The notes under the pieces: model-generated | Told to the model about the DNA's origin: nothing | Database searches by the model: none | Seen by the model: only the letters and a program-made list of their open reading frames with translations | Shown: positions 5,516-31,848 of the stretch, piece by piece | Layout: every line of letters starts with the position of its first letter | Numbering within the stretch: the first letter of the stretch is position 1 | Made by a program: the position numbers and the translations under genes | Assembly: GCF_003427025.1 (NCBI RefSeq) | Contig: NZ_QVAI01000014.1 | Location: 124,001-188,000, forward strand | Direction of reading: 5' to 3' | Length of the DNA: 64,000 bases | From: Jiangella endophytica | Lineage (GTDB): Bacteria > Actinomycetota > Actinomycetes > Jiangellales > Jiangellaceae

Positions 5516-6535
5516 CTACTTCAGTCCGCGGATCTTGATGCCGCGCAGCAGGTACTCGCGGCACACCAGGAAGGCGATGAAGATCGGGATCGACTGCAGG
5601 ATGGCGAGCACCATCATCCCGTTCCAGGTCAGCCCGGAGTTGAGCAGGTCACCCATGCCCTCGGCCTGTGCGGCCGCTCCGCCGCCGGTCGAGCCGGCCG
5701 TCGACAGCCGCTCGATCAGCTGATAGGTCGCGACCGACATCGTCACCTTCTCCGGGCTCTGCAGCGTGACCAGTTGCCACAGGAAGTTGTCCCACACCGA
5801 CCCGAAGCTCATGTAGGCCGTGACCGCGAACACCGGCACCGCCATCGGCATCACGATGCGGCGGAAGATGTTCAACTCCGATCCGCCGTCGACGCGGGCC
5901 GCGTTGATCACCGAGTTCGGGATCGTGTCGAAGAACCCCTTGAACAGCAGGAAGTTGAACGGCACGAAGATCGCCGGCAGGATCACCGCCCACGGTGTGT
6001 CCCACAGCCGCAGGGTGGGGAACTCGGTGTCGGTTCCGGGGATCATCGGCGCGTCCGGCATCGTGAACGGGAAGTTCAGCGTCAGCAGGTACATCGGCAC
6101 CAGCGTCACGACGAACGGCACCATCATCGTCCCGATGAAGAACAGGAACGACACCCGCGCGCCGCGCCCGCTCTGCAGCTTGCTGTTGGCGTAGGCCGCC
6201 AGCGCCGTCACCGGCAGGCCGATGCCCACCGCGATCACCGTGATGAACGCCGAGTTGGCGAAGTAGACCCAGAACGGCTCCTTCACCAGCTGGACGATCT
6301 GGGACTCGTCGCCGATGCGCAGGACGAGCTTCCAGGCGTCGAACGTGATCGCGGACGGGATGAACGTCGGCGGGTTGCGGACCACCTCGGCGCCGGGCTT
6401 CAGCGACGTGCTGATGATGTAGTAGAAGGGCAGCAGGTGCAGCAGCACACCGATGCCGAGGAATCCGGCGATGGCGGCGCGGCTGTACCGGAGTTTCGGC
6501 TGTCGCATCCCCACCTTGGGCAGCAGGGCCGGCAT
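5516..6535 (-). CDS. Carbohydrate ABC transporter permease (MalG type)
   Basis: Inner-membrane permease of about 339 residues with a first transmembrane helix (FLGIGVLLHLLPFYYII), a typical ISTSLKPGAEV periplasmic start and several further helices. The EAA cytoplasmic loop that contacts the ATPase reads NAARVDGGSELNIFRRIVMP. The C-terminus is the usual REYLLRGIKIRGLK. The ATG at 6535 overlaps the stop of the preceding permease (TGATG); a GTG one codon earlier is also possible. It forms a heterodimer with the 6535-7509 product. Substrate by context: beta-glucan oligosaccharides. Confidence 0.93.
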   Translation of the reverse strand: MPALLPKVGMRQPKLRYSRAAIAGFLGIGVLLHLLPFYYIISTSLKPGAEVVRNPPTFIPSAITFDAWKLVLRIGDESQIVQLVKEPFWVYFANSAFITVIAVGIGLPVTALAAYANSKLQSGRGARVSFLFFIGTMMVPFVVTLVPMYLLTLNFPFTMPDAPMIPGTDTEFPTLRLWDTPWAVILPAIFVPFNFLLFKGFFDTIPNSVINAARVDGGSELNIFRRIVMPMAVPVFAVTAYMSFGSVWDNFLWQLVTLQSPEKVTMSVATYQLIERLSTAGSTGGGAAAQAEGMGDLLNSGLTWNGMMVLAILQSIPIFIAFLVCREYLLRGIKIRGLK

Positions 6536-7509
6536 CACAGATCACCCTTTCGCGTCACGAACTCGCGCAGACTCCGCCGCGGCGGAGCATCCGGATCCTC
6601 GCGGATCGCGAACCGCATGATGCCGACGATGAGCATGATGAGCACGAACAGCAGGATCGACAGCGCGGTCGCGTCGGCGTACCGCAGCTGGTTCAGGATG
6701 TCGTAGACATACATCACCGCCGTGCGGCTGGCTCCGCCCGGACCGCCGTTGGTCATGAGCTTCGGCCACTCGAACTGCTGCAGGTTCCCGATGACCGCGA
6801 ACATCAGCATCATCAGGATCACCGGCCGCATGCGTGGCAGCGAGATCGTCCAGATCTTGCGCCAGAAGCCCGCGCCCTCGATCTCGGCCGCCTCGTAGTA
6901 CGACGTCGGCACGCTCTGCAGCGTGGCCAGGTAGATGAGCCCCGGCCCGTACAGCACCAGGCCCGGGATGACCAGCCAGAACAGCACTTGGTCGCTGCTG
7001 TTGAGGAACGGCTGGCGATCGAACCCGAGACCCGTCGCGATCGACTGCAGCAACCCGTAGTCGGTGTTGTAGACGTAGCGCCACAGGATCGCGGTGCCCA
7101 CCGAGCTCAGTGGCAGGAACCAGAGCAGCATCATCCAGCGCATGGTCCGGCGCGGCATCTCCATCAGCAGGATCGCGACGAAGATCGGCACGACGAACGT
7201 CAGCACGATCGACAGCACCGCGAAGATGATCGAGACCCGGAAAGCGTCGGCCACCAGCGGATCGTTGATCATCCGCTCGTAGCTCTCGAAGCCGGTGAAC
7301 GTGACGTCGCCCCGCAGGCGTGCGTCGGTGAAACTCAGGACGAACGACGTCGCCAGCGGATACCAGCCCCACACCAGATTGAGGAGCAGGGCGGGCCCGA
7401 GGAAGATCCAGAGCCGGCGGCGTCGGCGTGAACGGCTCGACGTCGTCGGTTGCCGGGTGTCCGCCTCGGCCGCGGCGGCGTCGTCGTCGACGACGATGTC
7501 GGTGGTCAT
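6535..7509 (-). CDS. Carbohydrate ABC transporter permease (MalF type)
   Basis: A 324-residue permease with an acidic cytoplasmic N-terminus, an Arg-rich segment (SRSRRRRRL) before helix 1 (WIFLGPALLLNLVWGWYPL), the usual SFTDARL loop and about six helices. The EAA loop is AAEIEGAGFWRKIWTISLP. It is encoded 12 bases after the binding-protein gene and overlaps the MalG-type permease, giving the standard binding protein-permease-permease order. It acts as the second half of the translocation pore. Confidence 0.93.
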   Translation of the reverse strand: MTTDIVVDDDAAAAEADTRQPTTSSRSRRRRRLWIFLGPALLLNLVWGWYPLATSFVLSFTDARLRGDVTFTGFESYERMINDPLVADAFRVSIIFAVLSIVLTFVVPIFVAILLMEMPRRTMRWMMLLWFLPLSSVGTAILWRYVYNTDYGLLQSIATGLGFDRQPFLNSSDQVLFWLVIPGLVLYGPGLIYLATLQSVPTSYYEAAEIEGAGFWRKIWTISLPRMRPVILMMLMFAVIGNLQQFEWPKLMTNGGPGGASRTAVMYVYDILNQLRYADATALSILLFVLIMLIVGIMRFAIREDPDAPPRRSLREFVTRKGDL

Positions 7510-7521
7510 TCAGTGGTCACC

Positions 7522-9231
7522 TCAGCCGAGAGCGGGCCGGACGTGCTCCTCCAGCCACGGTTCGAACGTGTCCCGGTGGAACTCGGGGGCGTTCTCCTCC
7601 CAGTGCGTGGCGAGCGCGTCGTAGTACTCGCTCGCCCCGGCGGCGAAGTCGTCCCACGGCACACTGGAGGAGAAGCTGGCCGCCTGGTCGTTGCGCACGC
7701 TGCTGAGATTGTCCAGGTCGCCGGCGACATCGGGCTCGGAGGGCTCGTACCACCACTTCGTCATGGCGTCGTTCAGCGCCTCGTCGCCGGGGCCGGGGTT
7801 GGTCTCGACCGGGATGAACCAGAGCGGGTCGGGGCGCTGGGCCAGCTCGGCGATCTCGCCCACCGAGGCGGCGATCTTCTCGCCCCAGCCCTCCGCGAGC
7901 GATCCCGGCAGCCCCTCGATGACCTCGGTGAACACGGGGTATGCGCGGGCGCCCTGCCAGACCGAGCGCAGGTCCTGCGCCGCGTCGAACTGGGCCTTGC
8001 CGCGCGACACCTGACCGTCGGTGTTCATGTACATGTGCAGGCTGAACGCCGCGGTCAGCTCGTCCTTCCCGAGCTCGGGATCGAACGAGACGGCCTGGAG
8101 GATGTTCTCGCAGGAGCTCGGGCCGGCGTTGCCGTTCAGTCCCGCCGGGAGCGCCACGATGCCGGTGACGTCGTCGAGCGGCAGCCCGGCGCGGTCGGCC
8201 AGCGCGACCGGCCCGTCCTCGGCGTCCGGGCCCTGGAGGAGCATGTCGATCGAGTTGATGTGCATGGCGATCTCGCCGCGGTTGAACGCGTGCCGCGGCG
8301 CCCACGGGTCGTCACCGGTGCCGATGTCGGCCAGCGCCGACTCGTCCTCGAAGATCATGCCGCGGATGTTCGCGACCGCCTCAGCATGCGCCTCGGCCTG
8401 GAGGCCGTAGTCGTAGCGCCACCACCACGGTCCGTCCGGGTTGGGCAGCCGGCCGAGCACCTCAGCGCCCTCGGCCGTCTTGAACGCGTAGTTCATCGGC
8501 GAGGTGCGCAGCATGATGCCCTTGCGTCCGTCGGCGTTCAACGCCAGGGCCAGCGCCCGCAGGTCCGCCCACGTCCAGCCGAGTTCCGGCTGCGGCAGGC
8601 CGAGCTGGTCGACGAGGTCGCGCCGGTAGTGCACGACCTCGCCGATGCTGAACGTCAGCGGCGCTCCGTAGTACCGGCCGTCGACCCCCCAGTTGCGCTC
8701 CCAGACCATGCGCGCGGTGTCGGTCATGCGGCCGACGACGTCGAAGGACGCCACCAGGTCGGTGGTGTCGGCCGCCAGCTGCTGGGCGAAGGCCTGCTTG
8801 ATGCCCTCGTTGTTCCAGCTGCCGATGACGTTGGCGTAGTAGATGGCCGGCGCGGTGCCGCCCGCGATCGCGGTGACCATCGCGTCCTTGTTCCAGACGT
8901 CGACGTTGGCGGCTTCGAGCTTCACGGCCGGGTTCTCGTCGAGCCAGGCCTGCAGGGTGTCCGCGTAGATCTTGTTCGAGGGGTCGTCGGCCTGTGCGGC
9001 CTCGTCGGGAACCGCCTTGTACGGACCGGCGTCGCTCACCAGGAGCGTGGCGTCGGCGAGTTCCGTCGGCAGCGGCTCGGGTTCGCCGCTGGGGTCGTCC
9101 TGGTCGGACGAACAGGCCGACAGGCTCACCAGGCCGGCACCGACGATGCCGACGCCCGCCGAAGCTCGCAGGAAGGACCGTCGCGTCAGGATGGGGCGTG
9201 CGCCTGATGCCCGGGGGATCCGGATGGTCAT
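7522..9231 (-). CDS. Extracellular solute-binding lipoprotein of sugar ABC transporter
   Basis: A 569-residue binding protein. The start at ATG 9231 is supported by an AAGGAG site just upstream and by the signal sequence. That signal is a twin-arginine type (TRRSFLRAS), followed by a hydrophobic core and a lipobox LSAC near residue 35, so it should be Tat-exported and lipid-anchored. The mature part is a family 1-like sugar-binding protein (GGTAPAIYYANVIGSW, WTWADLRALALALN, NRGEIAMHINSID). At about 570 residues it is longer than the usual 420-450, as seen in binding proteins for larger oligosaccharides. It is the first gene of the eight-gene leftward operon, divergent from a secreted GH16 enzyme, so beta-glucan oligosaccharides are the likely ligand. 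Confidence 0.9.
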   Translation of the reverse strand: MTIRIPRASGARPILTRRSFLRASAGVGIVGAGLVSLSACSSDQDDPSGEPEPLPTELADATLLVSDAGPYKAVPDEAAQADDPSNKIYADTLQAWLDENPAVKLEAANVDVWNKDAMVTAIAGGTAPAIYYANVIGSWNNEGIKQAFAQQLAADTTDLVASFDVVGRMTDTARMVWERNWGVDGRYYGAPLTFSIGEVVHYRRDLVDQLGLPQPELGWTWADLRALALALNADGRKGIMLRTSPMNYAFKTAEGAEVLGRLPNPDGPWWWRYDYGLQAEAHAEAVANIRGMIFEDESALADIGTGDDPWAPRHAFNRGEIAMHINSIDMLLQGPDAEDGPVALADRAGLPLDDVTGIVALPAGLNGNAGPSSCENILQAVSFDPELGKDELTAAFSLHMYMNTDGQVSRGKAQFDAAQDLRSVWQGARAYPVFTEVIEGLPGSLAEGWGEKIAASVGEIAELAQRPDPLWFIPVETNPGPGDEALNDAMTKWWYEPSEPDVAGDLDNLSSVRNDQAASFSSSVPWDDFAAGASEYYDALATHWEENAPEFHRDTFEPWLEEHVRPALG

Positions 9232-9358
9232 GGGTACTCCTTGCTCCTCGATGAGCCGTAGGAATGCTGCCGGGTCGGCTGAAACGTCTGCGGAGTGCGC
9301 CTCGATCGGACGAACCTGCCGAGCGGGCCAGGTGGGGTGTTTCCGGCTCGAGGCTTCC

Positions 9359-9399
9359 TTCAAGCCATAATTGAAGCCTCGACGTTTTGACGGTGTCAA
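9359..9399 (-). promoter_or_regulatory. Leftward promoter with operator site 1 (probable ROK regulator)
   Basis: On the minus strand a -35 TTGACA (9399-9394) is followed after 18 bases by TTCAAT (9375-9370). The -10 is covered by the site TTCAAGCCATAATTGAAG (9359-9376 on the plus strand), a TTCAA-N7-TTGAA inverted repeat. A second, longer inverted repeat, TCGAGGCTTC (9348-9357) and GAAGCCTCGA (9373-9382), overlaps it. Position over the -10 predicts repression of the ABC operon. The link to the ROK protein is inference. Confidence 0.6.
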
Positions 9400-9562: not shown

Positions 9563-11500
9563 ATGCGACTACGACTCGGCCTGGCCGCGACCACGCTCGC
9601 CGTCCTGGCCACCGCCGCCCTCGTGACCCCACCGTCATCCGCACAACCGGCGCCGGCCGCCGCTCAGGACAACCTCATCGTCAACGGCGACTTCGCCGCG
9701 GGCGTCGCACCGTGGACGGCCACCGGCGGAGTCGGGCTGGAGGTCACCGACGGCCGGCTGTGCGCGGCGATCCCCGGCGGCACGGCGTGGCCCGGCGACC
9801 TGACCGTCAACCAGGGCGGCCTCGCGCTGACCGCCGGCCAGACGTACACGCTGACGTTCACCGCGCAAGCCAGCCGGACGCTCTACACCCAGCCCGTGGT
9901 CCGCTCCACGACCGCCGGGTCCGCCGACTTCGCTCCCCGGATCCAGCTCACCGACACGGCCCAGACGTACTCGTTCGCCTTCACGGCCAACGCCACCGGC
10001 ACCGCCGGATACGTCCGGTTCAACGCCGGCGGCCACGCCCAGCCGTGGACCCTGTGCCTGGACGACGTCTCGCTGACCAGCGGCGGCACGCCTCCGCCCG
10101 ACGTCGGCCCGGGCTCCTTCCTGGACGAGTTCGACACCGGCGTCGACAACGTGTTCTGGTACACCCCCAACGGCTACAACAACGGCGCGCACCAGAACTG
10201 CCAGTTCAACGCCGCCAACGTCGCCGCCGCCGGTGGCGTCCTGACGCTGTCGCTCGACGACACCCCGTACGGCGACCGCGACTACTCGTGCGGCGCGATC
10301 CAGTCCAGTGAACGCTACGGGTACGGCACCTACGAGACCCGGATGCAGGCGGGCCGGGCCAGCGGCACCAACTCGTCGCTGTTCAGCTACATCGGCCCGT
10401 ACAACGGCTACCCGCACGACGAGATCGACTTCGAGGTGCTCGGCAAGAGCCCGACCCACGTCGACCTCAACTCCTGGGTCAACGGCAGCAACCGCGGGCC
10501 ATGGGTGAAGGACATCGGCTACGACAGCAGCACGCAGTGGGCCGACTTCGCCTGGATCTGGGAGCCGGACCGGCTGCGCTTCTACATCAACGGCGAGCTC
10601 GTCGAGGACGTCACGGATCCCGCGGACATCCCGTCCAACCGCCAGCAGGTCTTCACGATGATCTGGGGTTCGGACACCCTGACCGGCTGGATGGGCGAGT
10701 TCGTCTACCCGGGCGAGCCTGTCACCGCCGAGTACGAGTACGTCGCGTTCACCCGCGCCGGCGACGACTGCCAGTTCGCGAAGTCGGTCGCCTGCGACGT
10801 CGCCGTTCCGCCGGTCACGGACTCGTTCGTGGACGACTTCGACACGCTCGACACGTCGCGATGGGCCGTCTCGCACGGCTGGAACAACGGCACCGTCATG
10901 AACTGCACCTGGGATCGGGCGCAGGTCGTCGCCACCGGTGGCGCCCTCAACCTGTCGTTCGCGAAGAAGATCACCGGCGACCGCCAGTACGCGTGCGCCG
11001 AGGTCCAGCACCGGGACAAGCTGGGCTACGGCGTGTACGAGGCGCGTTTGAAGGGCGTCTCCGGGTCGGGGCTGATGTCGTCGTTCTTCACCTGGGTCGG
11101 CGCCGGCGCCTCGTCGCCGGAGGAAGCGATCGACGTCGCCAAGCTGCTGGGCAAGTACCCCCGCAAGGTCGAGGTCAACACCTGGATCGACAAGCAGCTG
11201 CTGACGACGGCGACGCGCACCCTGCCGGCGTCTCAGGAGTACGTCGACTACGCCGTGGACTGGTCGCCCACCAGGCTCGACTTCTACGTCGACGGCCGGC
11301 TCGTCCACTCGACCACCGATCCGGCCGAGATCCCCGACCGGGAGACGAACCTGTTCCTCAACATCTGGGGCAGCGAGACCAGCCCGCGGATGGGACGGTT
11401 CGCCGACCCCGGCGAGACGGTGACCTTCCAGGTCGACCGCGTCGCCTACACGGCACCCGGCGACGACTGCCAGTTCACCGGATCCGTCGCCTGCGACTGA
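9563..11500 (+). CDS. Secreted CBM4_9-GH16-GH16 beta-glucanase with a degenerate second GH16
   Basis: 645 residues. A signal peptide (about 1-28, ending PPSSAQ) is followed by a CBM4_9-like carbohydrate-binding module (about 36-172, NLIVNGDFAAGVAPW) and two GH16 domains of the lichenase subgroup (about 183-400 and 417-645). Domain 1 carries the catalytic HDEIDFEVLGK motif, with E287, D289 and E291 as nucleophile, assistant and acid/base. Domain 2 aligns closely (HGWNNGTVMNCTW, GYGVYEARLKG, FFTWVG) but reads EAIDVAKLLGK, with Ala522 and Lys527 in place of the two glutamates, so it should be inactive and may bind glucan. Both domains end in the same DDCQF..SVACD segment. It should cut beta-1,3(1,4)-glucans outside the cell. 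ATG 9563 is preceded by AAAGGGA. Confidence 0.9.
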   Translation: MRLRLGLAATTLAVLATAALVTPPSSAQPAPAAAQDNLIVNGDFAAGVAPWTATGGVGLEVTDGRLCAAIPGGTAWPGDLTVNQGGLALTAGQTYTLTFTAQASRTLYTQPVVRSTTAGSADFAPRIQLTDTAQTYSFAFTANATGTAGYVRFNAGGHAQPWTLCLDDVSLTSGGTPPPDVGPGSFLDEFDTGVDNVFWYTPNGYNNGAHQNCQFNAANVAAAGGVLTLSLDDTPYGDRDYSCGAIQSSERYGYGTYETRMQAGRASGTNSSLFSYIGPYNGYPHDEIDFEVLGKSPTHVDLNSWVNGSNRGPWVKDIGYDSSTQWADFAWIWEPDRLRFYINGELVEDVTDPADIPSNRQQVFTMIWGSDTLTGWMGEFVYPGEPVTAEYEYVAFTRAGDDCQFAKSVACDVAVPPVTDSFVDDFDTLDTSRWAVSHGWNNGTVMNCTWDRAQVVATGGALNLSFAKKITGDRQYACAEVQHRDKLGYGVYEARLKGVSGSGLMSSFFTWVGAGASSPEEAIDVAKLLGKYPRKVEVNTWIDKQLLTTATRTLPASQEYVDYAVDWSPTRLDFYVDGRLVHSTTDPAEIPDRETNLFLNIWGSETSPRMGRFADPGETVTFQVDRVAYTAPGDDCQFTGSVACD

Positions 11501-11534: not shown

Positions 11535-12269
11535 ATGACCACCTGGGACCTGCTGTGGGCCGACGAGTTCGACCAGCCCGGCCGGCCGGATCCGTCCCGC
11601 TGGAGCTACGACGTCGGCGGCGACGGCTGGGGCAACGACGAGCTCCAGTTCTACACCGACGGCCGGCTGGAGAACGCGCGCGTCGAGCAGGGCCGGCTGG
11701 TCATCGAAGCCCGTCGCGAGGACTGGCACGACCGCTCGTTCACCTCCGCCCGGCTCGTCTCGCGCGGCAAGGGTGACTGGCGCTACGGCCGGATCGAGGT
11801 GGTGGCCAGGCTGCCGCGGGGACGCGGCACCTGGCCGGCCATCTGGATGCTGTCGTCGAACCCGGACCGGCGCTGGCCGCACGACGGCGAGATCGACATC
11901 ATGGAGCACGTCGGCCACGACCCCGGCGTGATCCACGCGAGCATCCACACCGAGGCCTACAACCACCTCGCGAAGACCCAGCGCACCGCGGTCACCTCGG
12001 TGCCGGATGCGCGGGACGCCTTCCACACGTACTCCCTGGACTGGGATCGCGACACGATCTCCTGTGCGGTCGACGGCGTGAGCTACTTCAGCTTCGAGCG
12101 AGAGGCGGCCGCCGACGCCGCGCGGTGGCCGTTCGATCACGATTTCCACCTGATCCTGAACGTCGCCGTGGGTGGATTCTGGGGCGGTGAGCAGGGCGTG
12201 GACGACGCTGCGTTCCCGGCTCGCATGGAGGTGGACTCCGTGCGCGTCTTCGGGCGGCGGAGGACCTGA
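11535..12269 (+). CDS. GH16 beta-1,3-glucanase (laminarinase-like), probably cytoplasmic
   Basis: 244 residues, a single compact GH16 domain with no signal peptide. The catalytic motif is DGEIDIMEHVG, the laminarinase form with the extra residue (E-I-D-I-M-E). Other family features are WADEFD at the start, NDELQFYTD, YGRIEVVARLPRGRGTWPAIWML and LNVAVGGFWGG. The substrate should be beta-1,3-glucan chains, here probably imported oligosaccharides because it lacks an export signal. A GAGAGGG site precedes ATG 11535. It follows the secreted GH16 by 34 bases and is likely in the same transcript. Confidence 0.9.
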   Translation: MTTWDLLWADEFDQPGRPDPSRWSYDVGGDGWGNDELQFYTDGRLENARVEQGRLVIEARREDWHDRSFTSARLVSRGKGDWRYGRIEVVARLPRGRGTWPAIWMLSSNPDRRWPHDGEIDIMEHVGHDPGVIHASIHTEAYNHLAKTQRTAVTSVPDARDAFHTYSLDWDRDTISCAVDGVSYFSFEREAAADAARWPFDHDFHLILNVAVGGFWGGEQGVDDAAFPARMEVDSVRVFGRRRT

Positions 12270-13558: not shown

Positions 13559-14975
<1,417 letters not shown>

Positions 14976-14979
<4 letters not shown>

Positions 14980-16565
14980 CCACAGGCACGGCCGGCCCGC
15001 GCACCGGGCCGGCCACCTTCGACGGGTTCGTGCACGCCGACGGCGACCGGCTGGCCGACGGCGCGGGGCGGCGGCTGCAGTGGCGCGGCATGGGCCTGGG
15101 CAACTGGCTGCTGCCCGAGGGGTACATGTGGGTGCTGACCGACGGCCCGCAGTCACCGCGTGCCATCGAGTCCATGGTCAGCACCCTGGTGGGTCCGTCG
15201 CGGGCCACCGAGTTCTGGCGCCGGTTCCGCGACGTGTTCGTCGCCGAGGCCGACATCGCCCGCTTGGCCGCCGAGGGGTTCGACCACGTCCGGCTGGCGA
15301 TCAACGCCCGGGTCGTCATGTCCGACGACGGCGCGCCGCTGGACGACGGCCTCGCGCTGGTCGACCGGCTGATCGACTGGTGCCGCGCCCACCGCCTGTG
15401 GGTCGTCCTCGACCTGCACGGCGCCCCCGGCGGGCAGACCGGCACGAACATCGACGACGCCCCCAACGGCCGCCCCGAGCTGTTCGAGGACGCGGGCCAC
15501 CGCGAGCGCACGATCGAGCTGTGGACGATGCTCGCGCGCCGCTACCGCGACGAGACCGTCGTCGCCGGCTACGACCTGCTCAACGAGCCGATCCCGAACG
15601 ACTACCAGCACCACTACGCCGACGACCTCGCGCGGCTCTACCGCGACCTCACCACGGCCATCCGTGCCGTGGACCCGAACCACCTCATCATCTACGAGGG
15701 CAGCCACTGGGCGACCAACTGGAGCATCTTCACCGAGGTCTGGGACCCCAACTCGATGCTGCAGTTCCACAAGTACTGGTCGCCGCCGGATCGGCCGAGC
15801 ATCCAGCAGTACCTCGACGCACGCACCCGGCTCGGCCTGCCGATCTACATGGGTGAGGGCGGCGAGAACGGGCTGGACTGGTTCCAGACGATGTTCCAGC
15901 TGCTCGAGGATCACGAGATCGGCTGGAACTTCTGGCCGTGGAAGAAGATCGACACCGCGACGTCGCCCTGCTCGATCGACCCACCGCCCGGGTGGCCGGC
16001 CCTCACCGCGTGGGCCGCCGGACGGGCACCGCAGCCCGAGGCCGACGACGCGTGGAAGATCCTCGACGACCTGCTCGACCGCATGCGGCTGGAGCGCTGC
16101 ACGTACCGGCCCGAGGTGGTCGGCGCGATGCTCCGTCGCGCTCCGCTGCACCTCCCGGCGACGGGTTTCGCGTTCGGCACCGCGGGGTCGTCGCGTCCCG
16201 ACGACGCCCGGCCGTTCCCCGGGTTCCGCTCCGACGACGCCGTGACCATCCGCTTCTGCGGCGACGGCGATCCGGTCTGGACACACGACCCGAACCGCCG
16301 GTACGCCGACCAGTTCGAGGTCGTGCTGGACGCCGGCGACTGGGTGGAGTACGAGGTCTCGCTGGGCGGTCCCGCGGTGCTCGATGTCGAGGTGGAGCTG
16401 CGCGGCGACGCGATCCCGGACCTCGCCCTCGACGGCGTGGCGTTGGCGACGTCCGGCCGCACCGGCCGGTACCGCACACCGGCGCCGGTCACCGCTGGCA
16501 CCCACCGCCTCCGGGTCACGGCCACGAGCGACGAGACCGCGCTCGTGGGGCTCGAGGTCACCTAG
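14976..16565 (+). CDS. GH5 glucanase (exo-1,3-beta-glucanase-like) with C-terminal CBM6/35-like domain
   Basis: 529 residues with no signal peptide. The GH5 TIM barrel (about 25-400) shows LQWRGMGLGNWLLPEG, VVLDLHGAPGGQTG, acid/base E204 in DLLNEPIP, FHKYW, and nucleophile E294 in YMGEGGENG. The WLLPEG and APGGQ features are those of fungal-type exo-1,3-glucanases and their bacterial relatives. The last 100 or so residues (DAGDWVEYEVSLGG ... HRLRVTAT) look like a CBM6/35-type beta-sandwich. It is the last gene of the rightward operon and likely degrades beta-1,3-glucan oligosaccharides inside the cell. Confidence 0.85.
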
Positions 16566-30234: not shown

Positions 30235-31848
30235 GTGAACGAGCTTCGGACCGAGATCCTGGTGGTCGGCGGCGGACTCGGCGGCATCGCGGCGGCCCTG
30301 GCGGCGCTGCGCCGCGGGCGGCACGTCGTGCTCACCGAGGAGTACCCCTGGCTCGGCGGCCAGCTCACCTCCCAGGCCGTCCCGCCGGACGAGCACCCGT
30401 GGATCGAGGAGTTCGGCGCGACCCGCACCTACCGGGCGCTGCGCGACGGCATCCGCGACCACTACCGCCGCGCCTACCCGCTCACCGACGCGGCCCGCGT
30501 GCACCCGGCGCTGAACCCGGGCGCCGGCTGGGTCAGCAAGCTGTGCCACGAGCCGCGGGTCGCGGTCGCCGTCATCGACGAGTTGCTGGCGCCGTGGCGC
30601 GCGGCCGGCCGGCTCACCGTCCTGCAGCCGGCCCGCCCGACCCGCGCGGACGTCGACGGCGACACCGTCCGAGCCGTGACCGTCGAGCGTCTCGGCACGG
30701 GCGCCACGACGACGATCGCGGCCGACTACGTCCTCGACGCCACCGAGACCGGCGACTTGCTGCCGCTCACCGGTGCCGAGTACGTCACCGGCTTCGAGTC
30801 GCGGGCGGAGACCGGCGAGCCGAGTGCGCCGGACGCCGCACAGCCGCACAACCAGCAGGCGATCAGCTACTGCTTCGCACTCGACCACCTCGACGGCGAC
30901 CACACCATCGACCGGCCGGCCCGCTACGGCCACTGGCGTTCGGTGGAACCGGAGTTCTGGGGGTCGCCGCTGCTCAGCTTCGGCGCGCCGGACCCGCGCA
31001 CCCTGCGGCCCAAGCCGCGCGTCTTCGACCCGAACCCGGGCGACGACGCGCTCGCCGTCGACGCCGACCAGAGCCGCGAGCAGGGCGACGGCAACCTCTG
31101 GACGTTCCGCCGCATCGCCGCCCGCGACCTCTTCGCACCCGGGCACTACGCCAGCGACATCACGCTGGTGAACTGGCCGAACATCGACTACTTCGAGGCG
31201 CCGGTGGTCGACGTCGACGACGCGACGCGGCGGGCCCGGCTGGACGACGCCAAGCAGCTCAGCCTCTCGATGCTCTATTGGATGCAGACCGAGGCGCCGC
31301 GCCCCGACGGCGGCACCGGCTGGCCCGGGCTGCGGCTGCGCGCCGACGTCGTCGGGAGCACCGACGGACTGGCGCAGGCGCCCTACGTCCGCGAGGGCCG
31401 GCGCATACGGGCCGTCACCACGATCGTCGAGCACGACCTGTCCCAGGCGGTCCGCGGCGCGCACGGCGCCCGGCGCTACGCGGACACCATCGGCATCGGC
31501 ATGTACCGCATCGACCTGCACCCCTCCACCGGCGGCGACAACTACCTCGACGTCGCGGCCGAGCCGTTCGAGATCCCGCTCGGCGCCCTGCTGCCCCAGC
31601 GGATGCGCAACCTGCTCCCCGCGGGCAAGAACATCGGCACCACCCACATCACCAACGGCTGCTACCGGCTGCACCCGGTCGAGTGGAACATCGGCGAGGC
31701 CGCCGGCCACCTGGCCGCGAGCTGCCTCGACGACGACCGGCAGCCGCACGAGATCCAGGCCAAGCAGCCGCTGCTCGAGGACTTCCAGGCACTGCTGACC
31801 CGGGACGGCGTCGAACTGCGCTGGCCGGCCGGCGTGTCCGGTTACTGA
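30235..31848 (+). CDS. FAD-dependent oxidoreductase (FAD_oxidored family)
   Basis: 537 residues from GTG 30235, with AAGGAG upstream. The N-terminal dinucleotide-binding fold reads EILVVGGGLGGIAAALAALR, followed by EYPWLGGQLTSQAVPPDEHPW (the FAD_oxidored pattern). Near the C-terminus, PAGKNIGTTHITNGCYRLHP and NIGEAAGHLAA close the FAD site. No signal peptide, so cytoplasmic. Members of this family occur in polysaccharide-utilisation operons of actinobacteria and planctomycetes, but the substrate is usually unknown. Its place between LacI and the binding protein suggests oxidation of an imported sugar or derivative. Confidence 0.85.
   Translation: MNELRTEILVVGGGLGGIAAALAALRRGRHVVLTEEYPWLGGQLTSQAVPPDEHPWIEEFGATRTYRALRDGIRDHYRRAYPLTDAARVHPALNPGAGWVSKLCHEPRVAVAVIDELLAPWRAAGRLTVLQPARPTRADVDGDTVRAVTVERLGTGATTTIAADYVLDATETGDLLPLTGAEYVTGFESRAETGEPSAPDAAQPHNQQAISYCFALDHLDGDHTIDRPARYGHWRSVEPEFWGSPLLSFGAPDPRTLRPKPRVFDPNPGDDALAVDADQSREQGDGNLWTFRRIAARDLFAPGHYASDITLVNWPNIDYFEAPVVDVDDATRRARLDDAKQLSLSMLYWMQTEAPRPDGGTGWPGLRLRADVVGSTDGLAQAPYVREGRRIRAVTTIVEHDLSQAVRGAHGARRYADTIGIGMYRIDLHPSTGGDNYLDVAAEPFEIPLGALLPQRMRNLLPAGKNIGTTHITNGCYRLHPVEWNIGEAAGHLAASCLDDDRQPHEIQAKQPLLEDFQALLTRDGVELRWPAGVSGY

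Follow-up and report, generated by a model that had tools for sequence, protein, structure and literature searches.

A tandem GH16 protein of Jiangella endophytica whose second domain lacks both catalytic glutamates

Inactive relatives of GH16 enzymes, tandem GH16 proteins and, in PgaB, a catalytic domain in tandem with a glycan-binding pseudo-domain are all in print, to go by the sections of the papers cited below. Among the proteins compared here are the insect beta-GRP/GNBP proteins, whose glucanase-like domain we take to be a GH16 domain. In the cited portions of two papers, this domain belongs to a secreted protein, lacks one or more catalytic residues and is reported to be without activity or glucan affinity, while the whole proteins recognise beta-1,3-glucan (PMC2375007, PMC3616906). 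For Rv0315 of Mycobacterium tuberculosis (4WZF), which has a GH16 fold, the part of the account used here gives no detectable glucanase activity and no laminarin binding (PMC4606783). RfGH16_21 of Ruminococcus flavefaciens appears in an extract of a review as a cellulosomal lichenase with three tandem GH16 domains and a dockerin (PMC12484212), and E. coli PgaB, in the extract cited, as a protein with tandem homologous catalytic domains of which the C-terminal one is inactive and binds glycan (PMC7828330). No pair of an active and an inactive GH16 domain in one chain was named in the literature on tandem or inactive bacterial GH16 proteins that was searched outside subscription journals.

Domain architecture and catalytic residues

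The window analysed here is a stretch of 64,000 nucleotides from Jiangella endophytica (contig NZ_QVAI01000014.1, positions 124,001 to 188,000). The original prediction, made from the letters alone, had placed in it a protein with two lichenase-type GH16 domains, of which the second has lost both catalytic Glu. Pfam and alignment agree with this description, and the tandem is of the ExoK/BglS-like kind. The start codon ATG lies at 9563 and the stop codon TGA at 11498-11500. The features of the protein and its neighbours are as follows (window coordinates, strand, feature).

5516-6538 and 6535-7509, minus strand: two ABC permeases
7522-9399, minus strand: SBP_bac_8 binding protein (open frame)
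9563..11500, plus strand: CDS of the secreted CBM4_9-GH16-pseudoGH16 protein, 645 aa (translation, Pfam)
9563..9661, plus strand: probable signal peptide, about residues 1-33, read from a basic start, a hydrophobic stretch and an Ala-rich end
9671..10030, plus strand: CBM_4_9 (PF02018), residues 37-156, E 2.1e-13 (Pfam)
10115..10795, plus strand: GH16 domain 1 (D1), residues 185-411, catalytic residues intact
10421..10435, plus strand: E287-I-D289-F-E291 of D1, that is nucleophile, helper Asp and acid/base
10796..10822, plus strand: linker DVAVPPVTD, nine residues between D1 and D2
10823..11497, plus strand: pseudo-GH16 domain 2 (D2), residues 421-645
11126..11143, plus strand: A522-I-D524-V-A-K527 of D2, replacing ExDxE, with a one-residue insert ahead of K527
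11535..12269, plus strand: single-domain laminarinase-type GH16, EIDIME, with ordinary catalytic residues
12338-13558, plus strand: ROK regulator
13561-14979, plus strand: GH1
About 14976-16565, plus strand: GH5

This gene content suggests a beta-glucan utilisation locus around the tandem gene.

The CBM_4_9 match is well above the gathering score (51.3 versus 25.9 bits). A true CBM4_9 had been expected beside the pseudo-domain; the module is present, but it adjoins D1 instead of D2. Against PF00722 (gathering score 22 bits), the whole protein scored 165.6 bits in two GH16 stretches and D2 alone 74.2 bits (1.2e-20). The best-scoring NCBIfam model for D1 as well as for D2 was the ExoK model NF052392, for which the two domains alone reached 293.8 and 250.2 bits, respectively, both below the cut-off of 350 bits, and the whole protein reached 543.6 bits solely by adding both domains. 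The BglS model NF047856 (cut-off 300 bits) behaved in the same way, with 171.6 bits for D1, 154.5 bits for D2 and 323.9 bits for the whole protein, above the cut-off only through the two-domain sum. Since such equivalog cut-offs are passed only by summed domain scores, automatic naming may mislabel tandem GH16 proteins.

The residue numbering of the original prediction is exact in both domains: D1 retains EIDFE with E287 and E291, and D2 has Ala522 and Lys527 at the nucleophile and acid/base positions. When aligned with laminarinase-type GH16 sequences (MAFFT), A522 and K527 take the places of both Glu in the ExDxxE form. This register has independent support from the D2 of a relative in genome G144, which reads EAIDIK-VMG without the inserted residue and gives the same two positions. 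An alternative alignment that gives two Glu back to D2 was looked for and none was found. Following E521, the chain runs A-I-D-V-A-K-L-L-G-K, and no alignment can restore the pair because E521 adjoins A522 and the next acidic residue past D524 is E537. Thus the two Glu in ExDx(x)E that mark an active GH16 are present in D1, whereas D2 has A522 and K527 in their places.

The structural model of D2 that had been proposed as a check was obtained with AlphaFold2 from a 28-row alignment that included viral GH16 rows (pLDDT 92.8, pTM 0.90), and predicts with confidence a lichenase-type beta-jelly-roll. Residues 101-109 of the model (521-529 of the protein), both A522 and K527 included, lie on a single predicted strand. 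Lichenases come closest to the model in structure (3o5s with Z 31.2 and 1.6 A over 206 residues, 3i4i with Z 31.1), and they also ranked first in Foldseek. An earlier model from eight close rows was dropped at pLDDT 57.2. We consider D2 very probably inactive as a catalyst, and D1, with its intact residues, would be an active glucanase.

Conservation, origin and distribution of the tandem

At least nine tandem proteins were found in at least six genomes, and the source genome holds a second one on a different contig. In the family search, matches at E <= 1e-12 occurred in six of 22 genomes, five with tandems and G002 without; no unpaired D1 or D2 match was seen among these 22 genomes at that threshold. 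Three further searches scored only part of the candidates per genome (for instance 7 of 38 in G000), and their counts are lower bounds: nine of 393 genomes matched in the class sample, namely the same five family genomes, G144 with a tandem, and G002, G288 and G339 with none; one of 297 matched in the family of G144, which was G144 itself; and six of 396 matched in the phylum sample, where the tandem was found in the source genome only and the five other matches, weak and partly read, were left uncounted. G144 comes from another family and has its two adjacent GH16 domains within one frame. With six tandem-bearing genomes among the 393 sampled from the class, the design deserves the name uncommon that it had been given. 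Three candidates were rejected as tandems: G339 has a single lichenase-type domain with an intact EIDVE, and G002 and G288, judged by eye, have single GH16 domains of another type. A viral scan with D1 as the query found no relatives.

Of the nine, Pfam detected CBM_4_9 in just two, this protein and the orthologue from J. aurantiaca; in the remaining seven it found GH16 twice and no CBM. The J. aurantiaca orthologue has an additional C-terminal PF06439 (3-keto-disaccharide hydrolase) domain (L035 3691-4215) that is absent here. The linker between D1 and D2 measures four to nine residues across all nine proteins.

The loss of the catalytic pair is a shared trait. In the column counts, from which the G339 and Paracoccus rows were excluded, the D1 motif reads E-[I/L]-D-[F/V]-E with both Glu intact in 9/9 tandem proteins, and the D2 motif reads E-[A/G]-I-[D/N]-x(x)-[K/R] in 9/9, with Ala in six and Gly in three, Asp in eight and Asn in one, and Lys in seven and Arg in two. 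All eight rhizobial ExoK-type sequences have EID-[F/M]-E. E521 and K/R527 are conserved in every D2 and are specific to it; Asp524 is present in eight of nine, with Asn in the remaining one. The double loss goes beyond chance, since it is repeated in all nine tandem proteins found.

In the phylogenetic trees, D1 forms one clade and D2 another (support 100/99). D2 had been taken for a duplicate of D1. This idea gains from the tree without G339, Paracoccus and Rh007, in which D1 and D2 lie jointly on one side of a branch (88/85), but the tree that includes these long-branch rows placed D2 with ExoK and D1 with the BglS-like G339, at a weak 54/31. Because of this second placement, duplication within the lineage is a likely rather than a settled origin of D2. 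One protein departs from the common pairing. In G015 (L008 643-2028), D1 falls among the first domains of G019b and of the C89-type paralogues (99/98), and forcing it to group with G019a/G020 was rejected (p-AU 2.6e-5); its D2 groups with G019a/G020 (96/92), with a p-AU of 0.036 for the alternative grouping. These p-values are generous, since the groups were named after the first tree was seen. The two placements suggest a chimeric protein formed by domain exchange between paralogues.

Selection was estimated for five pairs by the NG86 method, from which all reported dN/dS values come (the YN00 value from one comparison was 0.032). The values ranged from 0.105 to 0.385 for D1 and from 0.117 to 0.387 for D2. 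D2 exceeded D1 in four of the five pairs, clearly so for this protein versus the J. aurantiaca orthologue (0.387 vs 0.135). These values indicate that D2 is maintained, under a slightly looser constraint than D1. We regard it as an old, maintained pseudo-GH16 domain related to rhizobial ExoK; it is probably a helper that does not cut, and not a duplicate in decay.

Possible roles of the second domain

The original prediction saw in D2 a binding module. Of the two marks of a glycan-binding pseudoglycosidase, namely loss of catalytic residues in a glycosidase homologue and retained binding of glycan, the first was found in 9/9 D2. The state of the cleft was assessed at positions that we take to be the lichenase subsite residues, with their numbering checked against the sequences. 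For each group, the average identity between pairs of sequences was taken over 19 subsite columns, among them the two catalytic positions, and compared with that at the other columns and with 2000 random column sets. Subsites stood out in ExoK (0.96 vs 0.64; 0/2000 random sets as high) and in D1 (0.81 vs 0.62; 9/2000). The corresponding figures were 0.55 vs 0.63 for all nine D2 (1733/2000), 0.75 vs 0.63 for the six with Ala at the nucleophile position (105/2000) and 0.63 vs 0.78 for the three with Gly (1932/2000).

The two types differ in the residues themselves. The six Ala-type D2, this protein among them, retain an aromatic cleft: equivalents of N26, E63, F92, N182 and W184 (lichenase numbering) are present in 6/6 and that of N121 in 4/6, and Trp occupies the Y123 position in 6/6 and the Y94 position in 5/6. 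The three Gly-type D2 are without such a cleft, and the equivalents of F92, N121 and Y123 are gone. The W192 equivalent is missing in all nine. D1 departs from lichenase as well, keeping E63 in only one of nine and having Met for N182 in eight of nine; it may therefore act on a substrate other than lichenan. In 9/9 proteins D2 carries less negative charge than the D1 of the same chain. All D2 are net negative (-6 to -24) and overlap the ExoK range, so charge does not decide for or against an anionic ligand. On this comparison of residues, a glycan-holding cleft is plausible in Ala-type D2, and the old substrate cleft is unlikely to hold glycan in the Gly type. The binding module is thus our first choice for the Ala type only; against its extension to D2 at large stand the subsites, not specially conserved over the nine, and the general loss of the Trp192 equivalent.

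The explanation that we favour, with a probability of roughly 55%, is that D1 cuts a beta-glucan-type polysaccharide while the pseudoenzyme D2 holds the glycan chain. The gene at 9563-11500 would give rise to a secreted two-headed glucanase, in which the ExoK/lichenase-like D1, judging by its intact residues, would carry out retaining two-glutamate cleavage. D2 would have started as an ExoK-like GH16 copy that lost both catalytic Glu (to Ala/Gly and Lys/Arg), most simply once, in the family ancestor; its conservation is observed, and selection would have kept it for a non-catalytic job. In the Ala type, D2 would most likely keep the polysaccharide chain in place beside D1, in a cleft that retains W440, N442, E480, F509, W511, N539, W541, N600 and W602. 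K527, in the acid/base place, would perhaps contact a negatively charged glycan group, and the products of D1 would be taken up by the neighbouring ABC importer.

Several observations argue for this explanation: the double loss in nine of nine D2 beside Glu/Glu in nine of nine D1, with both clades well supported; the low dN/dS of D2, its confidently predicted GH16 fold and the constant pairing of the domains in the family genomes; the mostly kept subsite residues of the Ala type and the less negative charge of D2 relative to D1; the importer and oxidoreductase genes that adjoin the tandem gene in related loci (see below); and the precedent of PgaB, a tandem of a catalytic domain and a pseudo-domain that binds glycan according to the extract cited (PMC7828330). 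Against it count the lack of preferential subsite conservation over the nine D2, the residues lost in the Gly type, the W192 loss, the higher dN/dS of D2 in 4/5 pairs, the net negative charge of all D2, which disfavours an anionic ligand, and the absence of glucan binding in the cited parts of the accounts of Rv0315 and the insect glucanase-like domain.

The strongest competitor, which we hold to be possible and about a one-in-three matter, is that D2 is a structural or docking pseudo-domain that stabilises D1 or docks to a protein such as the binding protein of the importer, with the old cleft free of glycan. The unremarkable subsite columns and the vanished cleft of the Gly type fit such a role, as do the many D2-specific conserved positions outside the subsites (for example T431, H483, L487, V499, D573, S583 and R593), the short linker, the pairing of D1 and D2 throughout the 22 family genomes and the GNBP domain reported, in the sources as cited in part, to lack glucan affinity. 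The aromatic cleft retained in the Ala type speaks against it, and G015 seems to pair the D1 of one paralogue type with the D2 of the other, which argues against a strictly matched D1-D2 interface. That D2 is a decaying, functionless leftover of the duplication is very improbable: its cleft residues are lost and its dN/dS mostly exceeds that of D1, but the frame is open in 9/9, the fold of this protein's D2 is predicted with confidence, dN/dS is well below 1 in all five pairs, and the replacements (A/G, K/R) are themselves conserved, together with E521. Equally improbable is a new catalytic activity of D2 through other residues such as E521, D524 and K527, suggested by the D2-specific conservation of E521 and K/R527 and by the Asp present at 524 in eight of nine, since E521, as the neighbour of A522 on the same beta strand, should point away from the cleft in the predicted fold by strand alternation, and one member has Asn at 524.

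The uptake step of the favoured explanation, in which D2 holds the chain for D1, can be compared with the setting of the other tandem genes. In six of six family loci whose tandem protein lacks a CBM, the gene belongs to a conserved block with the order PF12831 FAD oxidoreductase, family-5 binding protein, two permeases, two Opp-type ATPases, tandem GH16; this block was called by Pfam for L062 (1615-11133) and by tblastn from L062 for L063-L067, with partial Pfam checks. A GH3 match lies in the examined stretch of the block in five of the six (L062-L065 and L067). In G144, the FAD oxidoreductase is next door, together with a LacI regulator, ATPases, a permease match and a family-5 binding protein. 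The J. endophytica tandem gene has a different setting, and a homologue of the FAD oxidoreductase of the block is encoded at 30325-31845 of the window (57% over 516 aa). In G020 (L066 7847-9361), a sulfatase gene lies immediately downstream of the tandem GH16 gene, which may hint at a sulfated glycan there.

Several genera, and one genome outside the family, have preserved the fusion of an active with an inactive copy of a single glycosidase fold, the inactive copy with the same kind of replacement residues throughout. Such naturally matched domains lend themselves to tests of how the cleft of an enzyme turns into a non-catalytic module. The conserved block beside the tandem gene points to an actinobacterial polysaccharide-uptake pathway. 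A bolder and rather unlikely extension would make D2 a lineage of GH16-derived lectins, with the Ala/Gly and Lys/Arg site serving an anionic succinoglycan-like polysaccharide whose chain is held for the active twin and whose products enter a dedicated, undescribed Opp-type importer/FAD oxidoreductase pathway.

Comparison with known systems

RfGH16_21 resembles the tandem protein in having several GH16 domains in one chain; the extract of its source gives no catalytic-residue state per domain (PMC12484212). Rv0315 shares an actinobacterial GH16 fold with D2 but is described as a secreted protein with one GH16 domain in which both Glu are present, and its inactivity is ascribed, in the part of the paper cited, to a large open groove (PMC4606783). 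The insect beta-GRP/GNBP proteins, as far as the cited portions describe them, differ from the tandem protein in being immune recognition proteins with an N-terminal glucan-recognition domain (PMC2375007, PMC3616906), and PgaB, in the extract used, in having a CE4 deacetylase fold instead of GH16 (PMC7828330).

Bacillus lichenase BglS (1GBG, 1U0A, 3O5S) shares its fold and general subsite layout with the predicted D2 structure (Z 31), whereas equivalents of its E105, E109, W103 and W192 are absent from D2. ExoK of S. meliloti, an endo-1,3-1,4-beta-glycanase (NF052392), is 46.7% identical to D2 over 98% of the length and has the same C-terminal CQF..S.xC ending. In contrast to the tandem protein, ExoK is a single domain with EIDFE and lies within the Sinorhizobium cluster for the synthesis of succinoglycan, an exopolysaccharide.
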